This document shows, piece after piece, positions 17,355 through 26,112 of a stretch of 38,124 nt of DNA (positions are counted from its first letter, which is position 1; each line of letters begins with the position of its first letter). The notes beneath the pieces are model-generated. The model saw only the letters and a program-made list of their open reading frames with translations. It made no database searches and was not told the origin of the DNA. Source of the stretch: a virus; IMG/VR virus record IMGVR_UViG_3300047548_000040, positions 1 through 38,124 of that record. One strand, given 5' to 3'. The position numbers and the translations under genes were made by a program.

Positions 17355-17879
17355 TTATTCAATTACTACGTCTGCTGAATCATCAACAAACTCGTCAAAG
17401 TTTTGTGGCCTACCCATTACATATTCCTCTAACTGTTTAGCATAAGCGATAACATCAGAGGCAGTAGGAGCGGACTTAGCACCAACAGCCAAAGCAGCAA
17501 CTGCAGTAGAAAGGCTAGACTGTTTAACGATAAGTACTTGTCGAGCTGCACGTTCTTCTTTTGTTTCATAGTTAGATCCTGTTACTCGTGTTGCAGGCGC
17601 TGCTGCAGATTGTTGTGCCATTTGTGGTGCTCCTCCTTCGTTGATACTTGTCCATTGCCAATAACCATTCTGATCTTTCTCTGTGTTCACATTAACTGAA
17701 TCACCTTTAGCCAGACCAGAGATATGTTTAAAGACTCCGGGGTTACTAAAAGACATAAGCTTTTTATTATTTACTTTACCTTGCTCATCCTTGTATGTTA
17801 CTTCCATACTCTGATAAGTTCGACCATTCTTTGCTGCGTGTGTGTTTGGTGTTCCAACATCAATGATTGTAATTTGCAT
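17355..17879 (-). CDS. ssb: Single-stranded DNA-binding protein
   Basis: A 174-residue protein. Residues 1-80 look like an OB fold (ITIIDVGTPNTH, YQSMEVTYKDEQGK, GDSVNVNTEKDQNGYWQW). An Ala/Gln-rich linker (about 85-105) and a helix follow. The end is acidic (FDEFVDDSADVVIE), typical of phage SSBs that recruit polymerase or helicase through an acidic tail. The start overlaps the end of the polymerase fragment (17860-17879) after a GGAGAAAG site, matching its role in the replisome. The assignment is by architecture and context. Confidence 0.75.
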   Translation of the reverse strand: MQITIIDVGTPNTHAAKNGRTYQSMEVTYKDEQGKVNNKKLMSFSNPGVFKHISGLAKGDSVNVNTEKDQNGYWQWTSINEGGAPQMAQQSAAAPATRVTGSNYETKEERAARQVLIVKQSSLSTAVAALAVGAKSAPTASDVIAYAKQLEEYVMGRPQNFDEFVDDSADVVIE

Positions 17880-18585
17880 CTACTTTCTCCATATTGCCCC
17901 AGTTAGGTCCAACTTCACATTCGACCCGCATAGGTAAGTTAAAGTCTACTCCAAATAACTTTTTAAAGTTAGCTGGAACATCGTTAAAACATCTATCTAC
18001 TAAATTAACTATACTAATATTATCCCATATTTTAGGATCAAAGTCAAGTATTATTGAATCGTGTACTGTGTTTACAAGTAAGACTCCTTCCTTATCTTTC
18101 AATCTGTTACGCAATGATACTCTAGCAATAGCCATTAGGTCAGCACCTAGTCCTTGTACTGGATAGTTAAGTATCTTGGTGCGAGGCCAGACTTCTTTAC
18201 CATACTTTACTTCGGGTTCATAATTATAAACTCTTCCTGTTGGCATTACTAACTTTCTATTTCTTTTAGCTTCATCAAGAATTCTAGTATGCCATTCTCC
18301 CAGTCTTTTATATTTTCCATAGAACTGATCGATAACATCTTGCCAGAACCCTTCTCCACCAATGTCTTTAAAGTTGGGATCATTTGCATAAGAGTATGCA
18401 GATCCTCCGTAAATGAGTCTGAATACGAAGGTCTTAGCGATAAGTCTACTAGGTAGTCCGAATCTTTTTTGGTTATCTGAATGTTGATCAACACTATTCC
18501 ATATCTCCTCTAGTGCTACAGGATCTTGACTAAGATAGGTAGCGCCAACCCACTCTAGTTGTTTAGCGTCAGCTTGTAATATCAT
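17860..18585 (-). CDS. polA: DNA polymerase A, C-terminal polypeptide (palm and fingers)
   Basis: A 241-residue polypeptide with the polymerase catalytic motifs. Motif A is LQADAKQLEWVGA (residues 3-15), motif B is RLIAKTFVFRLIYGG (about 46-60) and motif C is VNTVHDSIILDF (about 168-179). The residue equivalent to E. coli Pol I Phe762 / T7 Tyr526 is Phe (KTFVF). Motif C reads HDS rather than HDE. The exonuclease and thumb are encoded by the upstream gene in the same frame, separated by three in-frame stops. The ATG at 18585 overlaps the TAA of a small ORF (TAATG), with AGGA about 9 bases upstream; a TTG at 18594 is the alternative. Confidence 0.88.
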   Translation of the reverse strand: MILQADAKQLEWVGATYLSQDPVALEEIWNSVDQHSDNQKRFGLPSRLIAKTFVFRLIYGGSAYSYANDPNFKDIGGEGFWQDVIDQFYGKYKRLGEWHTRILDEAKRNRKLVMPTGRVYNYEPEVKYGKEVWPRTKILNYPVQGLGADLMAIARVSLRNRLKDKEGVLLVNTVHDSIILDFDPKIWDNISIVNLVDRCFNDVPANFKKLFGVDFNLPMRVECEVGPNWGNMEKVDANYNH

Positions 18586-18674
18586 TAGTACCAATCCTGT
18601 TCTTTGTAAAGGTAATCAGTCAACTCATAACCATCAAGCAAATCTTGATAAGAATAAGTCTTTAATTTCTCCAT
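18585..18674 (-). CDS. 29-residue ORF bridging the two polymerase fragments
   Basis: A 29-residue frame beginning MEKLKTYSYQDLLDGYELTD and continuing YLYKEQDWY. It is read in a different frame from both polymerase parts. It begins inside the last codons of the N-terminal fragment, runs through the gap between the fragments, and its TAA overlaps the ATG of the C-terminal fragment. There is no clear ribosome binding site. Protein-like composition and exact stop-start overlap suggest it is translated and couples the second fragment to the first; a frameshifted C-terminal extension of the first fragment is the other reading. Confidence 0.5.
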   Translation of the reverse strand: MEKLKTYSYQDLLDGYELTDYLYKEQDWY

Positions 18675-19794
18675 CGAAGTTTTGCATGTTTGGTTTGCTG
18701 CTTGATAGTCTGCCTGTTCGTACCACGCATTGATTGAGTTGACCATGTACCGTACCTTCTTTCCAGTTAGATTTTTTTCGTAAGTCTAGTAGACCAGTGT
18801 AGTAAGTTGACACTCTCTTCTCTAGCTCTGCCCTCTTAAGGAGTAGCTCAATTATTTCCTTGGCTTTATTAGTTCCTTTAAGAGAGCGGAGTGTAGGTTC
18901 ATCAGTAGAGTAGAGACCTTCTTTGGCCAACTCACTACCTTTAAGTGGTTTAACTAACCTTTCGAACGAGACTTCGTAGTCGACCCATCTATCCTTTGGT
19001 TCTCCTTTTCTACTACCAGACTTAAAATATCCGCAAGGCTCTTTACGACGAAGCCTAATGCTGCCACCATATAAGAAAGCACTAAGATGATCGACGCTAT
19101 TAGGGTTAAACTCACTACAGTTATGATACTCAAACAGTGTTTGGTCAATCTGTCGAATTTGTTCATTAAGTTCATTAGCTAATTCCTCGCTTCTTTGTTC
19201 GTTATAAATAAGACCATTGAACTCCATCTCTTGTAGTACCATTAGGTCTTGGTTATGCAAGCTTACCAGTCTTTGTAATTGTATAGATGACTGATTAACT
19301 TGTTCTAGTTGTTTTAAATAAATCTGTTCTGTTAATACTAAATCTTGTTTTAGATAATCCTCTAAGATATCTCTAGGAATATCTGGTGTATCTATACCTG
19401 CGGACCAATACTCGCTAGCCACAACATCGAGTTTACTATCCAAGCCATAGTATTGAGCAACACCATTGAGGCTAGGGTAGGATTCCTTCTGTCCTGTAAG
19501 TATGAAATGCACGAGCTGACAATCCCAAATACGCTTATCATAAAAATTAATGCCATATCTTTTTATCCAATGCAAATCAAATTTAATATTAAAGCCAACT
19601 ATAATGTCGTACCCAGAGATAGTGTTTTGTACACTAGCAAGCACATCCCTATTAGCAGAGTCAGAATACTCAATATCACTAAGCCAGCTGCTGCCATTGC
19701 TAAGTAGTCCGATATAACAGAGCTTATTCGTTTCATCGAAAGGGTTTCCTTTATTAGAAGTTGTTGTTTCTACATCAAGAACTAAGTGTCGCAT
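18634..19794 (-). CDS. polA: DNA polymerase A, N-terminal polypeptide (3'-5' exonuclease and thumb)
   Basis: A 386-residue polypeptide. The exonuclease motifs are LVLDVETTT (residues 4-12), IVGFNIKFDLHWI (about 64-76) and LEDYLKQDLVLTEQ (about 143-156). The thumb extends to VVRTGRLSSSKPNMQNF (about 357-373) and IKDLFLSRF, where the gene stops just before polymerase motif A. Palm and fingers follow as a separate gene. Normal phage PolA is one chain, so this is a genuine split or an interrupted gene. Its ATG overlaps the stop of a 40-residue membrane protein (TAATG). Confidence 0.88.
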   Translation of the reverse strand: MRHLVLDVETTTSNKGNPFDETNKLCYIGLLSNGSSWLSDIEYSDSANRDVLASVQNTISGYDIIVGFNIKFDLHWIKRYGINFYDKRIWDCQLVHFILTGQKESYPSLNGVAQYYGLDSKLDVVASEYWSAGIDTPDIPRDILEDYLKQDLVLTEQIYLKQLEQVNQSSIQLQRLVSLHNQDLMVLQEMEFNGLIYNEQRSEELANELNEQIRQIDQTLFEYHNCSEFNPNSVDHLSAFLYGGSIRLRRKEPCGYFKSGSRKGEPKDRWVDYEVSFERLVKPLKGSELAKEGLYSTDEPTLRSLKGTNKAKEIIELLLKRAELEKRVSTYYTGLLDLRKKSNWKEGTVHGQLNQCVVRTGRLSSSKPNMQNFDGEIKDLFLSRFA

Positions 19795-19916: not shown

Positions 19917-21153
19917 CTTCGTACCTCGCTACTTCTGGTTTAATTAACACTTGGGTAGAGCCGTGCCGTAGGTCAGGCATGGTATCATCATCCCCAAGTA
20001 ACTTGTTCTTACATATGTTGAAGTATCTAGTTCTACTGGTATTGTCTGAGTCCTTACCAATACCTAAGATCCAGTCTGCTTCACCTTGCTTTGATGTCTT
20101 ACTACCATCAACCATATCCATTGTTAACCACAGCTTGCCTTCGGCTTCTCCGCTAGCTTGTGATACTGCAATGACTGGTGCGTATGTTTTAGCTATCTCA
20201 CGAGCCCATTGGTACAAGGCTTTGAGTTCAAGGTCATTACGCTCACCCTTGAATCCTTTGATCTTATCAATCTGATCAAAGATAATTAGTGCTGGGTTAG
20301 TATTCTTTAGTACTGCTTCTATTCTTGCTTTATTATTACTGTCTTCGAAGTCAAGGATCTTAATACGATTACCTGTCTTTGATTCAAAACGTTGTTGATA
20401 ACCATCAACATCAGAGAACAAGGCATCAGTTGTAATTCCTAGCGTCGCTTGGTAACACCGTATAGCCACCTTGTTTCCTTGCTCTTCATTATTAAACCAT
20501 AGAATGTCACCTTCCGTTTGAGTAACCATATGGCTAACCTCTGAAGCAAGGAATGTAGTCTTCCCTGTCTCGGGCCTAGCAAATATAAAGCCAAAGTCCC
20601 CTTTTCTAAGAGAGCCAAGAGCTTTGTTAAGCCAGTTAAGGCGCCAACGTAAACCGGGCGAAGCCACTTGTGATTCATATAACTCCTTTAGATTCATAAC
20701 TACTGGTTTAATTTCTTCTGTTTCTACTTGCTGGTGTTCAAACTTCTCGAACAGTTCCATCAGGTCATCGACAGAAGTCCTGCCATCTTCTACATCAAGA
20801 GCAACTTTAGCGATCTCACCAGAGAGAGCTCGTTGTCTCTGTTGATCTAGTAATTCAATTACTAAATCTCTATTACTAATTTTTAAACTAAAGATCTCTG
20901 TTAAGAGATCATTTAATTCTTTTCTTTCTATGTCTTTAGTAATTAAGTAATTACTATTATATATTAATTCTAATTCTTCTTTAGTTATAGTAATAGTATT
21001 TATATATTTGTTATAGTAATTATTAATTGATTCAAATAATTTATATAAATTACTATAATTATTTTTAATATAATTTATATTAACATATTTATAATACTTT
21101 GTAAAGACTTCTTTATCATCACAGAACAATTTTATTATCTGTTTCTCAACCAT
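19906..21153 (-). CDS. Replicative DNA helicase (DnaB/T7 gp4 helicase-like)
   Basis: A 415-residue RecA-fold helicase. The N-terminal about 95 residues are Asn/Tyr/Lys/Ile-rich and encoded by extremely AT-rich DNA. The ATPase core has GDFGFIFARPETGKTTFLAS (Walker A, around residues 184-203), ILWFNNEEQG, ALIIFDQIDKIKG (Walker B, about 282-294), and VIAVSQASG (about 325-333). DGSKTSKQGEADWILGI resembles the sensor/arginine-finger region. It unwinds DNA ahead of the polymerase. Primase is a separate upstream gene overlapping by 19 bases, whereas in T7 the two are fused. Confidence 0.9.
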   Translation of the reverse strand: MVEKQIIKLFCDDKEVFTKYYKYVNINYIKNNYSNLYKLFESINNYYNKYINTITITKEELELIYNSNYLITKDIERKELNDLLTEIFSLKISNRDLVIELLDQQRQRALSGEIAKVALDVEDGRTSVDDLMELFEKFEHQQVETEEIKPVVMNLKELYESQVASPGLRWRLNWLNKALGSLRKGDFGFIFARPETGKTTFLASEVSHMVTQTEGDILWFNNEEQGNKVAIRCYQATLGITTDALFSDVDGYQQRFESKTGNRIKILDFEDSNNKARIEAVLKNTNPALIIFDQIDKIKGFKGERNDLELKALYQWAREIAKTYAPVIAVSQASGEAEGKLWLTMDMVDGSKTSKQGEADWILGIGKDSDNTSRTRYFNICKNKLLGDDDTMPDLRHGSTQVLIKPEVARYEDVY

Positions 21154-21824
21154 TCACTGATTTCTCCTTTCGTGTATTCTTTCGGATCATTAGGTGAGAT
21201 AACAACAGAGGCATTGACACCCCTCTGTTTCAAATTGTTTGCTATCTTAATGGCCTCTTTAGCCTTGTCCCTATCCAACCATATTACCACGGACTTAAAG
21301 TCTCGTCCTATGCGTTCGTTCACATCGTCAGACATATGACTTCCTAACAATGGAATAGCACACCACTCAGGACTTAGCCTAGAGATTTTAATAGCAGACA
21401 ATATATCTTCTACACATACTAGTTTATCAGAGTATCCGTAGAATGTCAAAGGCTTTTTACCTTTTGATAAGTACTTAACTTTCTGATCACCAAAACATCT
21501 AGCTTGCCAGTAGTCGGGTGCTTTGATTAGTACTAGCAACTGGTGCTCATCGTTCCAGCAAATACCGAAGTCCTTGATTTCATTAGGTAAAATACCATAT
21601 GAGAATAGCCACTGTTTCGCTACTTGGGGTAGCTCATCAGTCGTAGCAATTTGCGTATCCTGCAAATCTTGTTTAGGAGTTTGCGTCATACGCAATCTTA
21701 GTGATGCAGTATCTGTCTTTGGTTTGTAATACTTACATCCAAAGCAGAAGAAGTGATCATCATACTCACCAAGATTATCTTTGCTACCGCATCGAGGACA
21801 CGGTAGATGCTGTATAAATTTCAT
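21135..21824 (-). CDS. DNA primase (zinc-binding and TOPRIM domains)
   Basis: A 229-residue primase like the N-terminal half of T7 gp4. A zinc ribbon, CPRCGSKDN...FFCFGCKYY, covers residues about 9-32. The core has LLVLIKAPDYWQARCFG and KVKYLSKGKKPLTFYG. TOPRIM motifs are LVCVEDILSAIKIS (Glu near 139) and VVIWLDRDKAKEA (about 194-206). It makes primers for lagging-strand synthesis. An AAGGATAATC site precedes the ATG. Upstream lies the oppositely oriented pqqA cassette, so minus transcripts reaching primase run antisense across pqqA. Confidence 0.9.
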   Translation of the reverse strand: MKFIQHLPCPRCGSKDNLGEYDDHFFCFGCKYYKPKTDTASLRLRMTQTPKQDLQDTQIATTDELPQVAKQWLFSYGILPNEIKDFGICWNDEHQLLVLIKAPDYWQARCFGDQKVKYLSKGKKPLTFYGYSDKLVCVEDILSAIKISRLSPEWCAIPLLGSHMSDDVNERIGRDFKSVVIWLDRDKAKEAIKIANNLKQRGVNASVVISPNDPKEYTKGEISEWLRNR

Positions 21825-21835
21825 GATTATCCTTA

Positions 21836-21864
21836 TTTACTTTCCTAGTAATTCGTGGTATAAT
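21836..21864 (+). promoter_or_regulatory. Promoter of the phage pqqA-like gene
   Basis: TTTACT (21836-21841, 4 of 6 consensus) and an exact TATAAT (21859-21864) with a 17-bp spacer, oriented on the plus strand against the surrounding operon. The peptide's ATG lies 50 bases beyond the -10 box. Confidence 0.75.
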
Positions 21865-21869
21865 ATTTA

Positions 21870-21891
21870 CATATACTGAAAAAAGTATATG
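21870..21891 (+). promoter_or_regulatory. Dyad/hairpin at the pqqA transcription start
   Basis: Perfect 8-bp arms CATATACT (21870-21877) and AGTATATG (21884-21891) with a GAAAAA loop, beginning five bases after the -10 box. It could be an operator straddling the start site or a 5' stabilising stem in the leader. Confidence 0.65.
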
Positions 21892-21913
21892 ACATTTAAC
21901 CAAGGAGATTACT

Positions 21914-21985
21914 ATGTGGACAAAACCAACAGCAAGTGAAATGCGTTTCGGCTTTGAAGTTACAATGTACGTTATGAATAAGTAA
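21914..21985 (+). CDS. pqqA: PqqA-like PQQ precursor peptide
   Basis: A 23-residue peptide, MWTKPTASEMRFGFEVTMYV followed by MNK, with the length and layout of bacterial PqqA. It has Trp2, Pro5, Gly13, Glu15 and Tyr19; in the host pathway PqqE links this Glu and Tyr to begin pyrroloquinoline quinone synthesis, with PqqD as chaperone. AAGGAGA lies 5 bases before the ATG and a TATAAT promoter lies upstream. It is the only plus-strand gene inside the minus-strand replication block, like a moron. The FGFEVTMYVMN core looks like Methylophilaceae PqqA (from memory). No other pqq gene is in the window, so it must use host PqqB-E. Confidence 0.93.
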   Translation: MWTKPTASEMRFGFEVTMYVMNK

Positions 21986-22009
21986 CATGGATTGGGTCAC
22001 TGATTGTTA

Positions 22010-22231
22010 TTAATCATCAGTCCACTCATTGTAGTCGACTGAATCAGTTAGATCATCTGCTACTTCCTCAATGATCTCCTCAGTTGTAGATAGGTCCTGC
22101 CTTTCTATGCTGAGGACATCATCTTTAATCTCACCATAACATCCGTTACACATGTCAATGTAGTTGCCATGCAAGTCCTTGCGTGTTGACTCAAAGTCAT
22201 TTAGATTTTTATCACATGCTATGCACCGCAT
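22010..22231 (-). CDS. Small zinc-ribbon protein with acidic tail
   Basis: A 73-residue protein. MRCIACDKNLNDFE and DMCNGCYGE give two Cys pairs (CIAC and CNGC), a treble-clef or zinc-ribbon knuckle. The C-terminal 40 residues are very acidic (EEIIEEVADDLTDSVDYNEW). Similar MRCxACxxxL proteins are common near phage primases (from memory). Start at 22231 is chosen because AGGAG is then 8 bases upstream; a start two codons earlier would sit on the site. Possible transcription or replication accessory; function unproven. Confidence 0.75.
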   Translation of the reverse strand: MRCIACDKNLNDFESTRKDLHGNYIDMCNGCYGEIKDDVLSIERQDLSTTEEIIEEVADDLTDSVDYNEWTDD

Positions 22232-22362
22232 GAGCATTCTCCTTTTTTACTTGTATCATATTGATTAATAACATCATTTAAATCATTGGCTAACTCATAG
22301 TCAAGACTTTCTGCAAAAGTAGCCAATCGTTTTAGTTCATAAATTAACTCAGCGTAATCCAT
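22219..22362 (-). CDS. Small acidic helical protein, unknown
   Basis: A 47-residue protein: MDYAELIYELKRLATFAESL, then DYELANDLNDVINQYDTSKK and a short Cys-containing tail GECSCGA. AGGAGAACTTA precedes the ATG. It starts inside the last codons of the ATP-grasp gene, and its end carries the ribosome binding site and start of the zinc-ribbon gene. The interlocking signals support it as real. Function unknown. Confidence 0.65.
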   Translation of the reverse strand: MDYAELIYELKRLATFAESLDYELANDLNDVINQYDTSKKGECSCGA

Positions 22363-23125
22363 TAAGTTCTCCTAAATAGTTTTTAAATGCTTGAGTATAT
22401 TTCTCAAGAGTTGTACCATACAGACCGGGTGCTGTGTTCACTTCAAAGACGAAGATTTTATTATCCAGCTCACGGTACCCAACATCAACAGCGCCAAAGT
22501 CAAGGCCAAGAATGTTGACAGCACGACAACACTCATCCAAGAGCTGCTGGGGTGGATTAATGTCGCACCGAGCATAGATCCAGCCGTTAGAATGATTGCG
22601 AATACCAGTTCTAGGGCCAGTATAATCAAGACGTTTCTTTTTCTGTTGAACATCAATTACCTTTCCTTTAAATACATGAACACGATACTCATGTTTATGT
22701 TTAGTTTCAATTGTATACAACGGAGCATCAACTAAATCATAAGTTGTATCACTAATAATTATACCACTACCACTGTGTCCTGTCAAGGACGTTCGACAAT
22801 ATACTTTTCTATTAGGATGCACACCCCATAGATTACTGATGTCATACCTAGTTGTAGCCCATAGAGGTATGTGACCAAAGCCTGCGGCTTCAAATGCTTT
22901 GAATGTCTTAAGCTTGTTACATGCTAGTGCAATAGCACTGTGTTTGTTTAAGTCATGCTCCGCATGCAGGATCTCACTTGGTCGTGAGTTACCCCAGTTA
23001 ATAATAATGTCCTTGCGTCTCGCATCGTAAGTTGGTCTTACTCGCTTGACACCTAGACTACTAGCCAATGACTTGGCACTAATAGATCCTATCTTATATG
23101 GGAATAACTTCAATCTAAAAGGCAT
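22349..23125 (-). CDS. ATP-grasp ligase-like protein
   Basis: A 258-residue protein of the ATP-grasp superfamily, which activates a carboxylate with ATP and joins it to an amine. Supporting segments are FKAFEAAGFGHIPLWATT (about 74-91), KVYCRTSLTGHSGSGIIISD (106-125, nucleotide-binding strand and loop), EYRVHVFKGKVIDVQQKKK (145-163), and GLDFGAVDVGY...KIFVFEVNTAPGL (about 208-234) with the metal-binding Asp, Glu and Asn. It belongs to a block with an amidoligase and a glutamine amidotransferase. Its ATG and ribosome binding site are embedded in the last codons of the upstream gene. Substrate unknown. Confidence 0.88.
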   Translation of the reverse strand: MPFRLKLFPYKIGSISAKSLASSLGVKRVRPTYDARRKDIIINWGNSRPSEILHAEHDLNKHSAIALACNKLKTFKAFEAAGFGHIPLWATTRYDISNLWGVHPNRKVYCRTSLTGHSGSGIIISDTTYDLVDAPLYTIETKHKHEYRVHVFKGKVIDVQQKKKRLDYTGPRTGIRNHSNGWIYARCDINPPQQLLDECCRAVNILGLDFGAVDVGYRELDNKIFVFEVNTAPGLYGTTLEKYTQAFKNYLGELNGLR

Positions 23126-23408
23126 AGCCTTGCTCCTTCCGTCTACGATACATTTGCTTAATCTTCCTATTAATTTTATAGTAAGGGCCTTTATCAGTTT
23201 CTTCTATAATATCTACATGATCAACTCCTATCCAGAATTTAATTCCGTCATCTGAACTTGGTTGAATTCCTGTAAGATATGAAAACTCAATTAAGTATTC
23301 TGTTCCATCACTGGTAACATCTATAATTATACCCTCACTTCCGGGTTTGGTATATCTATAATGATTACCATTAGTTATAACAACTTTAGTTCCGATATCA
23401 AAAAGCAT
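23115..23408 (-). CDS. SH3-like small protein, paralogue 1
   Basis: A 97-residue beta-rich protein (LFDIGTKVVITNGNHYRYTK, EGIIIDVTSDGTEYLIEF, FWIGVDHVDII) resembling KOW/SH3-barrel proteins, with a basic C-terminal helix ending KQMYRRRKEQGYAF. The next gene upstream ends in nearly the same 15 residues, so the two are tandem paralogues. I choose the ATG at 23408 after AAAGGAG; an earlier start would run through that site. The last codons supply the ribosome binding site and ATG of the ATP-grasp gene. Role unknown, presumably with the ligase cluster. Confidence 0.75.
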   Translation of the reverse strand: MLFDIGTKVVITNGNHYRYTKPGSEGIIIDVTSDGTEYLIEFSYLTGIQPSSDDGIKFWIGVDHVDIIEETDKGPYYKINRKIKQMYRRRKEQGYAF

Positions 23409-23694
23409 AACCCTGCTCCTTTCTTCGTTCATACATTCTCTTAACTTTATTACTAATGATTTCTATTTGAGTCATTTCGGTAATAATTTTCCAATCTAAT
23501 TCCCATCCATTCGGATCAGTTGTATGATGAATATCTCCTTCTTCCTTAAGATGTTTTATCTTTCCTTTACTGTAGAAACCTATAGTTTTTAAGACTGTAG
23601 GATAACCTGTTCGTTTAGATACATCTACAACAAGATAACAAATAGAATTATCAGAGTTACTATACCCAATTATATCACCTATTTTAAAAGACAT
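23398..23694 (-). CDS. SH3-like small protein, paralogue 2
   Basis: A 98-residue protein: MSFKIGDIIGYSNSDNSICY, LVVDVSKRTGYPTVLKTIGF, a central TTDPNGWELDW, and the C-terminal VKRMYERRKEQGYAF shared with its neighbour. The FKIGDI opening also resembles the C-terminal domain of the adjacent glutamine amidotransferase (YLKVGDIVKL), so three related barrel domains may be present in a row. The ATG at 23694 follows GAGGAG embedded in the end of the amidotransferase gene. Function unknown. Confidence 0.75.
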   Translation of the reverse strand: MSFKIGDIIGYSNSDNSICYLVVDVSKRTGYPTVLKTIGFYSKGKIKHLKEEGDIHHTTDPNGWELDWKIITEMTQIEIISNKVKRMYERRKEQGYAF

Positions 23695-24571
23695 CTGCAG
23701 CTCCTCTTGAATAGTCAAATGGAATTACTTCATCATCTTCAATAACTAAATCTATTAAAGCAAAAGGAACATTATATGCAAAAGAATTGTCTTGAATCTC
23801 AGCATCATCACGCATTAGATCAGCTGTGTAATTAGCATTGACACTAACTACCTCAAAGATTTCACCACGCTTAAATGTTTCTTTTGTATCCCAGTCATGG
23901 AAGTTATTAGTAAGCTTTACAATATCACCTACCTTTAAGTAAGGTGAGCTAGTATACTTAGGCGGACTTACCATAGGCAAAGTTGCACTGCTGCTGTAGT
24001 AACTTTTAGGGTTTGCTACAGGTTTAGGTGGAACATATGGCTTGTAACTACTGTTAGAATACCAGACATTGTTATCCCAGATACCTTTACTTTCGTTGAA
24101 GATATCGTAATTTCCATGACGATCTAAGAAGATAAGCTTAGAGTATCCAATACGAGCTTCAATCAAACTCTTCATAGCTGGTTGGAACAGTGATAAGTTA
24201 CCCCACTTACTTACAAGTGGCTTGATAATCTCGTCATTGAAATGACTAGTATCTGATTGATCACCAACACCAAAGCCTGAGATTACCCCATTATGAACAA
24301 AACCAAGAGAGCTATTAACGAGAAACGGATGACAGTTTGCTTCATCAATAGCACCGTGTGTTTTAATTCTGAAATGTAATACTGCTTGTTTTTTCTCATG
24401 CTTTTTATATGCTTTCCAAAAGTCATTGAAAGTAAAGAAACCCTTTTCCATTACAAGTTCTTTGTTGCTTGCATACATAAAGCCTGCACCATCAGGATTA
24501 GAACGGAAACATTCTTGCAATGTTGCTTGGGAAATCTTTGTATCTTTAGGTTTGTAAATAGCAATACACAT
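23684..24571 (-). CDS. Class II glutamine amidotransferase-like protein with C-terminal SH3-like domain
   Basis: A 295-residue protein. Cys2 follows the initiator Met (MCIAIYKPKD), as for N-terminal-nucleophile glutamine amidotransferases. Other family motifs are NPDGAGFMY (about 30-38), VLHFRIKTHGAIDEANCHPF (about 64-83) and GFVHNGVISGFG (about 90-101). The enzyme would release ammonia from glutamine or act as an amide hydrolase. Residues about 185-215 are a Pro/Ser/Tyr linker, and 215-280 a barrel-like domain (YLKVGDIVKLTNNF) akin to the next two proteins. Its ATG overlaps the amidoligase stop (TAATG), linking the two enzymes. Confidence 0.85.
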   Translation of the reverse strand: MCIAIYKPKDTKISQATLQECFRSNPDGAGFMYASNKELVMEKGFFTFNDFWKAYKKHEKKQAVLHFRIKTHGAIDEANCHPFLVNSSLGFVHNGVISGFGVGDQSDTSHFNDEIIKPLVSKWGNLSLFQPAMKSLIEARIGYSKLIFLDRHGNYDIFNESKGIWDNNVWYSNSSYKPYVPPKPVANPKSYYSSSATLPMVSPPKYTSSPYLKVGDIVKLTNNFHDWDTKETFKRGEIFEVVSVNANYTADLMRDDAEIQDNSFAYNVPFALIDLVIEDDEVIPFDYSRGAADVF

Positions 24572-26112
24572 TATGCGAACTCCTTGATTTTGTTAGCTAA
24601 TTGTGGGTAAGTCTTAACTTGTTTAAGAACCCAACTAATAAAGTTTGTATGAGATAGTTGTTCCTTGAGAGGAATAGCTAAACTAGCTGGCATTGAATAG
24701 TCAACCAATGCTTTACAGAACTGCATCTTGTATGCAAATTCCTCGAATGACATAGGAGTACTAAAGATACGGAACTCAATAGTCTCTTTAGGATTGAGAT
24801 TAAGAGCGTTGTATCTTTCACTATGTTGTTTAGCAATCCACGGAAAAGTAACAGTCCGTTTAGGATCTACATTGCAGTAGTGATTTGGTTCACGACCAGC
24901 AATGAATGTTACAAATGGTTTGTTGTCCACCTTGTTCATGAACGCAGTTATCTTACCTATTGTAAATAAGCTAAGTGGTGCTTTACTTACATGCACATGC
25001 ATACCTACATTAGATGCAATAGATAACTCAGAAGGAAGATTAGAATAAAACTTATTGAATTCTTCCATGTGAATATCTAATGTAGCTGGACAAGATACAA
25101 TCTCAAAGCCATTACGAATACTACCATCAGCTTTCATAATAGCATGGTTCTTTAATAGCTTACCAACTTTAACAGATGCAACTTCTCTATCTGAAGTTTC
25201 GTACTCCAATTCACAACCTAAATAAATAGGAACTTCTCTAGGCTTAACATTCTTTGCTTTGAACTTAAGTAGTTCAGGAACCCTAGTAGAATAGTTATGA
25301 ATCTTGTAGTGTTTCTCAAGACACTTGTAACAGATACCATCTTCAGGTTCAATAGCCTGTGTTGGAACTTCTTCATTACATTCAGGACATTTACAAGTTC
25401 CTTCACCTTTATCATATACTCTATCACCATACAATATTTGTGTATGTCTTACTAGATAGAAATCACGAACTAGTTTAAGTTTATATTTTTTAATATCTAT
25501 TTTACGGTCAATAGCTACTTCTTTATTGTCTAGTTTATAATATGAGAATTGACCACTTATTAATAGCTTACCAGTTAAATGGCAAATAACAACACGATTT
25601 AATAATACACTACGAATATCGTCATTACATAGTTGGTTATATTGTTCGCTACCTTTTGGGTGTTCAGGTTTATCATATCTATTAGTTAGTTCTTTATCTA
25701 ACTCTGCAAGCATTCGATCAATAACATAACTACTCATATAGCTACGATAGTCTGTCCGTTTGTATAGTGCTTTCCAGAATCCTACTAATAGTTTCTTTGT
25801 AGTAAGACTACGGAAACGCAAAGGATTATAAATGTAGTACAATGCATCAATAACAGCTGCATGAAAATCACGGCAGTCTGCATTGACAATACCTAGTTCT
25901 ATTGCTTTGTCTACATCTTTACCAAATACACTATTATATCGATAACCTTTACCAAACTGAACAAGTTTGAAACCTTTGTATGAAATAGTAACTACGTCTA
26001 CTTTATCACCCCAAGGATCAGGTACTTTATCAAACTCTACAGTTACATCACTGTTTGCATTTGGAATTACATAACCGTTGGCTATGAATTCCTTAACTGT
26101 ATACATCTTCAT
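24571..26112 (-). CDS. Phage amidoligase (glutamine synthetase/GCS-like fold) with N-terminal extension and zinc ribbon
   Basis: A 513-residue protein. Residues 1-235 are an unassigned extension. CKCPECNEEV...GICYKCLEKH (about 239-263) is a four-Cys zinc ribbon. Residues about 295-500 match putative amidoligases: YLGCELEYE (about 297-305) with metal-binding Glu, ADGSI..GFEIVS, NVGMHVHVSK (about 365-374) with paired His, and YNALNLNPKETIEFRIF (about 433-449) with Glu and Arg. These enzymes are predicted to form amide bonds on peptides or metabolites. Co-occurrence with ATP-grasp and class II amidotransferase genes is a known association. Substrate unknown. Confidence 0.88.
   Translation of the reverse strand: MKMYTVKEFIANGYVIPNANSDVTVEFDKVPDPWGDKVDVVTISYKGFKLVQFGKGYRYNSVFGKDVDKAIELGIVNADCRDFHAAVIDALYYIYNPLRFRSLTTKKLLVGFWKALYKRTDYRSYMSSYVIDRMLAELDKELTNRYDKPEHPKGSEQYNQLCNDDIRSVLLNRVVICHLTGKLLISGQFSYYKLDNKEVAIDRKIDIKKYKLKLVRDFYLVRHTQILYGDRVYDKGEGTCKCPECNEEVPTQAIEPEDGICYKCLEKHYKIHNYSTRVPELLKFKAKNVKPREVPIYLGCELEYETSDREVASVKVGKLLKNHAIMKADGSIRNGFEIVSCPATLDIHMEEFNKFYSNLPSELSIASNVGMHVHVSKAPLSLFTIGKITAFMNKVDNKPFVTFIAGREPNHYCNVDPKRTVTFPWIAKQHSERYNALNLNPKETIEFRIFSTPMSFEEFAYKMQFCKALVDYSMPASLAIPLKEQLSHTNFISWVLKQVKTYPQLANKIKEFA

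Follow-up and report, generated by a model that had tools for sequence, protein, structure and literature searches.

pqqA and an adjoining eight-codon reading frame in phages of methylotrophic Methylophilaceae: a putative supply of PQQ precursor peptide during infection

Why does a virus carry, against the direction of its own replication genes, a gene for the precursor peptide of PQQ? The question is raised by a stretch of 38,124 nt from the IMG/VR virus record IMGVR_UViG_3300047548_000040 (positions 1 to 38,124, hereafter the window), in which a plus-strand gene of 72 bp, pqqA, encodes a peptide of 23 residues. In the synthesis of PQQ, one molecule of PqqA is spent per molecule of cofactor and the enzymes are reused. 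A phage-encoded pqqA was reported earlier from the Lake Baikal population VP_266, where it lies beside a methanol dehydrogenase gene and was proposed to support methanol oxidation (PMC7678222), and pqqA is listed among viral auxiliary genes from reservoirs (PMC13188868). The OM43-phage papers searched are silent on a phage copy. Here, we report near-universal, unannotated pqqA in Methylophilaceae phages, together with an orientation-dependent promoter, a leader hairpin and an octapeptide gene as new elements of such loci.

The pqqA locus of the window

The gene is located at 21914-21985 (+) and its translation, MWTKPTASEMRFGFEVTMYVMNK, matches both curated PqqA profiles far above their cut-offs, namely TIGR02107 with 38.5 bits (E=6.8e-10, cut-off 20) and PF08042 with 40.5 bits (E=2.4e-10, cut-off 21.1). 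Since the whole window contains only 298 ATG-initiated ORFs of 15-35 aa, a chance match to these profiles is excluded, and the peptide is confirmed by its sequence as a full-length PqqA. The sequence-only reading had proposed a clear 23-codon PqqA at this place with Trp2, Gly13 and the pair Glu15/Tyr19; the ORF and all four residues were found, with Glu15 and Tyr19 standing four apart in E-V-T-x-Y as the PQQ-forming pair. Length and these residues are shared with bacterial PqqA (TIGR02107/PF08042) and with the orphan copies of Methylophilaceae, and the peptide is only a few residues off the common host forms MWT[TK]PAATEMRFGFEVTMYVMNK. Unlike bacterial PqqA, the window copy is viral, lies away from pqqB-E, possesses its own promoter and leader hairpin and is followed by an 8-aa gene.

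Around pqqA extends a minus-strand replication operon encoding a ribonucleotide reductase, exonucleases, a family A DNA polymerase, a DnaB-type helicase and a primase, into which pqqA is inserted in antisense direction; the structural genes of the window are on the plus strand. This host-type metabolic gene thus lies between phage genes, with primase and helicase on one side and further operon genes on the other. The upstream neighbour is the divergently oriented primase gene (21135-21824, -; PHROG phrog_47, E=1.4e-24), and the downstream neighbour, convergent with pqqA, is an ORF call for a 75-aa CxxC-containing protein (22010-22237, -), which also flanks pqqA in the contigs L019, L055 and L250. 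It had been claimed that pqqA is the only plus-strand gene between 12.3 and 27.6 kb. From 12.5 to 26.1 kb, every gene with homology support is indeed on the minus strand, but a second plus-strand micro-ORF at 21987-22013 had been missed. Of the window genes examined, none was recognised as a methanol dehydrogenase gene, and searches of the window for Rfam families, tRNAs and integrases gave no matches.

Two further observations concern this operon. The polymerase gene (17860-19794, -) falls into two parts at motif A (..DLFLSRFA* / MILQADAKQLEWV..), the gap being bridged by a 29-codon ORF in another frame with a stop-start overlap; a natural split, a frameshift or an insertion are possible readings of this interruption. 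At 22349-26112 (-), neighbouring genes of ATP-grasp (R2K / S6 glutaminyl transferase-like), class II glutamine amidotransferase-like and amidoligase type form a peptide- or amide-modifying cluster.

A putative promoter precedes pqqA at 21836-21864 (+), recognised by consensus and conservation. It comprises a -35 element TTTACT (21836-21841), a spacer of 17 nt and an extended -10 region of the form TGG-TATAAT (TGGTATAAT; TATAAT at 21859-21864), and it matches the consensus at 10 of 12 positions, with TG ahead of the -10 and a weak -35. In this AT-rich region a sigma-70 promoter scan was not above chance (2 found vs 2.9 expected), and a plain terminator scan was uninformative. As the plain promoter scan does no better than shuffles, support for the promoter comes from its conservation in L250 (TGCTATAAT), L019, L055 and L286, the last three having a -10 and a dyad (see below) at corresponding positions. 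L250 has a primase with 90% identity to that of the window and retains promoter and dyad, with a loop shorter by one base. Among phage pqqA loci with an upstream gene pointing in the opposite direction, TATAAT was found upstream of pqqA in 31 of 46 cases (12.7 +- 3.0 in shuffles), as opposed to 15 of 69 where the upstream gene lies on the same strand (10.4 +- 2.9 in shuffles). This restriction of the enrichment to oppositely oriented upstream genes is a within-family control for the predicted independent transcription of pqqA.

Transcription would start at a perfect dyad, ATATACT-N6-AGTATAT (21871-21890, +), which begins at the inferred +1 and would form a 5'-terminal stem-loop of the RNA. The hairpin has a folding energy of -5.4 kcal/mol, with 4.5% of shuffles equally good; it alone stands out, the fold of the whole 119-nt leader being ordinary (z -0.46). 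Hairpins of 7-9 bp also occur in L250, in L019 and, built from another stem sequence, in L055; L286 has an intact dyad sequence with a different minimum-energy fold. The ribosome-binding site AAGGAG is located at 21902-21907 (+), and sites of the AGGA/GGAG type were found no more than 20 nt from the start in 128 of 134 phage pqqA loci (isolates and the matches listed). The AAGGAG, the TATAAT promoter and the start-site dyad named in the earlier reading are therefore all real, the promoter being backed by conservation in relatives and not by the scan.

pqqA in phages and in their hosts

The tBLASTn comparison suggested in the sequence-only reading matched isolates of Methylophilaceae phages. 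Among 50,697 phage records, the PqqA peptide detected ten real phages, nine of which infect Methylophilaceae, namely P19250A (host LD28) as well as Venkman, MEP301, MEP401, MEP402 and four Melnitz phages (host OM43). A podovirus from spring water is the tenth. Thus, pqqA is present in 9/9 and named in none of the Methylophilales/Methylophilaceae phage records found, a figure which refers to records recovered by this very search and is not the share among all methylophages. The claim that gene callers miss the gene also held: isolate records leave it unannotated or, in Melnitz and the podovirus, place an unnamed 'hypothetical protein' on the opposite strand. With its 72 bp, it was easily overlooked. 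VP_266 is likewise a methylotroph virus with a PqqA gene (PMC7678222); it differs in also encoding methanol dehydrogenase and in being one described population, whereas pqqA is standard cargo of the isolates studied here. Matches in 'Acinetobacter phage MD-2021a' were rejected as phage, since the contig under this name (L009, CAKLQF020000010.1) carries a bacterial pqqABCDE operon and is probably mislabelled bacterial DNA.

IMG/VR and bacterial genomes were searched for PqqA with degenerate DNA patterns, and a single pattern retrieved at least 120 pqqA-bearing contigs from IMG/VR; essentially all matches listed are PqqA ORFs with ribosome sites. Isolates and listed matches together represent about 40 unlinked gene neighbourhoods, as judged for IMG/VR from contigs that are fragments and from neighbour genes called by a simple ORF picker. 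None of pqqB, C, D and E occurs in the phage pqqA stretches examined among these matches. Five of six relatives of the window longer than 33 kb contain pqqA, there at another place of the genome; the sixth, possibly a fragment, lacks it.

Window and L250 differ at 7 nt of pqqA and at no residue, and for phage copies a dN/dS of about 0.15-0.19 was obtained at codons that the search pattern leaves free (among the matches listed). This substitution pattern indicates that phage pqqA is kept by purifying selection. In 127 aligned phage peptides from the matches listed, Glu15, Tyr19, Gly13, Trp2 and Arg11 are invariant, the first three being fixed by the search pattern and Trp2 and Arg11 lying outside it. 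The commonest phage peptides are identical to common host peptides, and differences between phage and host PqqA fall mainly at positions 6-8 and 20-23. Other PqqA peptide types were observed in eight phage contigs; such divergent types suggest that phages of other PQQ-making hosts may carry pqqA as well.

The sequence-only reading had pointed to a PQQ-making host, probably from the Methylophilaceae. The PqqA signature supports this, since the core EMRFGFEVTMY[IV] belongs overwhelmingly to Methylophilaceae or close betaproteobacterial contigs (among 120 genome matches listed). So do the replication genes, as primase and helicase of the window are nearest, among isolates, to those of the OM43 phages MEP401/402 (50-65%; for the primase alone 52% and 50%). 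The window virus very probably infects methanol-eating bacteria, as far as can be deduced from these sequences. In 60 sampled Methylophilaceae genomes, pqqA was present in 60/60 and in two or more copies in 58, with twelve copies in one of them, and pqqB-E are present in Methylophilaceae contigs. An order-wide sample contained pqqA in 32 of 120 genomes, mostly in one to three copies. These counts compare with 3-12 pqqA copies and usually single other pqq genes described for the family (PMC4109929); the expression of multiple pqqA copies has been discussed (PMC9851590). Host genomes, by amplifying pqqA alone, show the same dosage logic as the phages. Many further genomes of the order-wide sample have two PqqA matches that face opposite ways at a distance of about 5 kb, and in six OM43-type or related hosts tandem pqqA copies lie about 200 bp apart and differ in their C-termini (VCNK/R and VMNK).

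An octapeptide reading frame next to pqqA

The micro-ORF at 21987-22013 (+; ATGGATTGGGTCACTGATTGTTATTAA) starts 1 nt after the pqqA stop codon, encodes MDWVTDCY in 8 codons plus stop and overlaps the convergent gene at 22010-22237 by 4 nt. It is conserved at the codon level beside pqqA. In L250 three of its codons differ synonymously and the ORF ends with another stop codon, yet the octapeptide is identical. A search of IMG/VR for any DNA encoding MDWVTDCY yielded 11 contigs, and in 11/11 the ORF directly follows pqqA. The pattern M[VI]IVTDCY, which contains nothing of pqqA, gave 111 matches; in 109 of them the start codon shares bases with the stop codon of pqqA (TAATG); the remaining two lie at contig ends with the end of pqqA still visible. 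A first scan had found the octapeptide gene at 3 of about 120 phage pqqA loci (among the matches listed), most loci being without it. The scan anchored on the pqqA 3' end only detected it in at least 75 of 120 (among the matches listed); there VTDCY never changes, third positions vary freely and near variants are absent. The six isolate types P19250A, Venkman, MEP301, MEP401, MEP402 and Melnitz all carry an unnamed pqqA, like the window, and differ from it in having no 8-aa gene directly after pqqA.

Hosts encode the octapeptide as well. With codons 2-3 left open, 187 Methylophilaceae genomes gave 8 matches, all of them MDWVTDCY, each with its own ribosome site and no more than 0.8 kb from a same-strand pqqA, in four distinct contexts; no other such micro-ORF recurs near host pqqA across distinct contexts. 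The pattern had 0 matches in 369 class-wide and 150 order-wide genomes, two samples with a small overlap, in which the reference and a few Methylophilaceae are contained. The search for a viral copy that stands alone behind a ribosome site of its own was negative. pqqA and the octapeptide gene lie -1, +1 or +35 nt apart, and hosts encode the octapeptide by itself; a PqqA-octapeptide fusion made by frameshifting was therefore rejected.

Judged by its sequence, MDWVTDCY very probably belongs to a gene that is translated and linked to PqqA, and we lean towards a real gene, the product of which (MDWVTDCY, MVIVTDCY or MIIVTDCY) acts together with PqqA both in the phages and in their Methylophilaceae hosts. 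The main alternative is an RNA signal for coupling, termination or stability, which we regard as rather unlikely. The element is very short, three contigs have an amber codon at codon 3 (ATGGACTAGGTAACAGACTGTTACTAA), and a terminator-like hairpin with a T-run directly follows 97 of 110 copies, all as expected of such a signal. On the other side, codon changes are mostly synonymous and the first and second positions of VTDCY are fixed at varying third positions, also in the pqqA-anchored scan; pN/pS at codons 2-3 is 0.21 (a value including some sequences found by a pattern that fixes those residues). The variable gap to pqqA and the ribosome sites of the host copies likewise argue for a peptide gene. 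Besides, contig L292 (8810-8943) has an 11-nt tandem repeat (GTGAATAGATA-like) between pqqA and an intact MDWVTDCY gene.

In the literature searched, no earlier description of MDWVTDCY was found. With its 7 codons, mccA of microcin C likewise stays below 10 codons, and it is functional; the octapeptide gene differs in sequence, in its constant position beside pqqA and in that no maturation enzyme was found adjacent. If real, it would be among the shortest known genes and PQQ supply would involve a second peptide, hitherto unrecognised in PQQ biology. It also illustrates how functional micro-genes may be hidden by gene callers.

Proposed function and alternative explanations

We consider it likely that the two-cistron mini-operon of the phage tops up PQQ synthesis in infected methylotrophs; the sequence-only reading had likewise proposed that the peptide could keep PQQ high during infection. 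Glu15 and Tyr19 of PqqA become PQQ, which would make PqqA the only part of the pathway consumed one-for-one, and PqqB-E would serve as reusable host enzymes. When host transcription declines, PqqA should be exhausted before PqqB-E. By supplying PqqA alone, the phage could keep PQQ reaching methanol dehydrogenase (XoxF/MxaF) and thereby maintain energy and carbon flow during infection. The octapeptide would probably be translated by termination-reinitiation and act in the same process, as chaperone, processing aid, regulator or second substrate. Expression of pqqA during infection and its metabolic effect are inferred from the genomic evidence. The invariant reactive residues fit a supply of substrate only, as do the promoter reserved for pqqA and the fact that no other pqq gene is present. 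The relative without pqqA, the majority of phage pqqA loci, in which the octapeptide gene is missing, and the three amber contigs speak against this reading, and the benefit could be small because hosts already hold several pqqA copies. Viruses of an abundant group of freshwater and marine methylotrophs are shown here to carry, as a matter of routine, the peptide that PQQ synthesis uses up, and viral control of methanol oxidation can be tested in the existing isolates (P19250A, Venkman, MEP301, MEP401/402, Melnitz).

Phage PqqA might instead be a decoy: by tying up PqqD/PqqE it would reduce PQQ synthesis or divert it, so that competitors starve or methanol oxidation slows down. That the substrate is carried and the enzymes never are (in the phage loci examined) would suit this, as would the differences from host peptides at positions 6-8 and 20-23; however, the five invariant residues are those of a working substrate and the commonest phage peptides equal those of hosts, so that we find a decoy very unlikely. 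Equally, pqqA might be a functionless passenger or recombination relic, often picked up from hosts in which it is common. Its multiple host copies and many insertion places are compatible with this, but the low dN/dS, the L250 peptide unchanged despite 7 nt changes, promoters where they are needed, the lack of an integrase in the window and the retention in 5/6 long relatives make such a passenger very improbable indeed. Finally, the locus might act on the replication operon as an antisense RNA or a regulatory insert, the coding of pqqA being of minor importance. This is suggested by the antisense position and own promoter in the window and is scarcely credible in view of the codon-level conservation and of 43 of 134 phage loci, about a third, in which pqqA is co-directional with both neighbours (among the matches listed).
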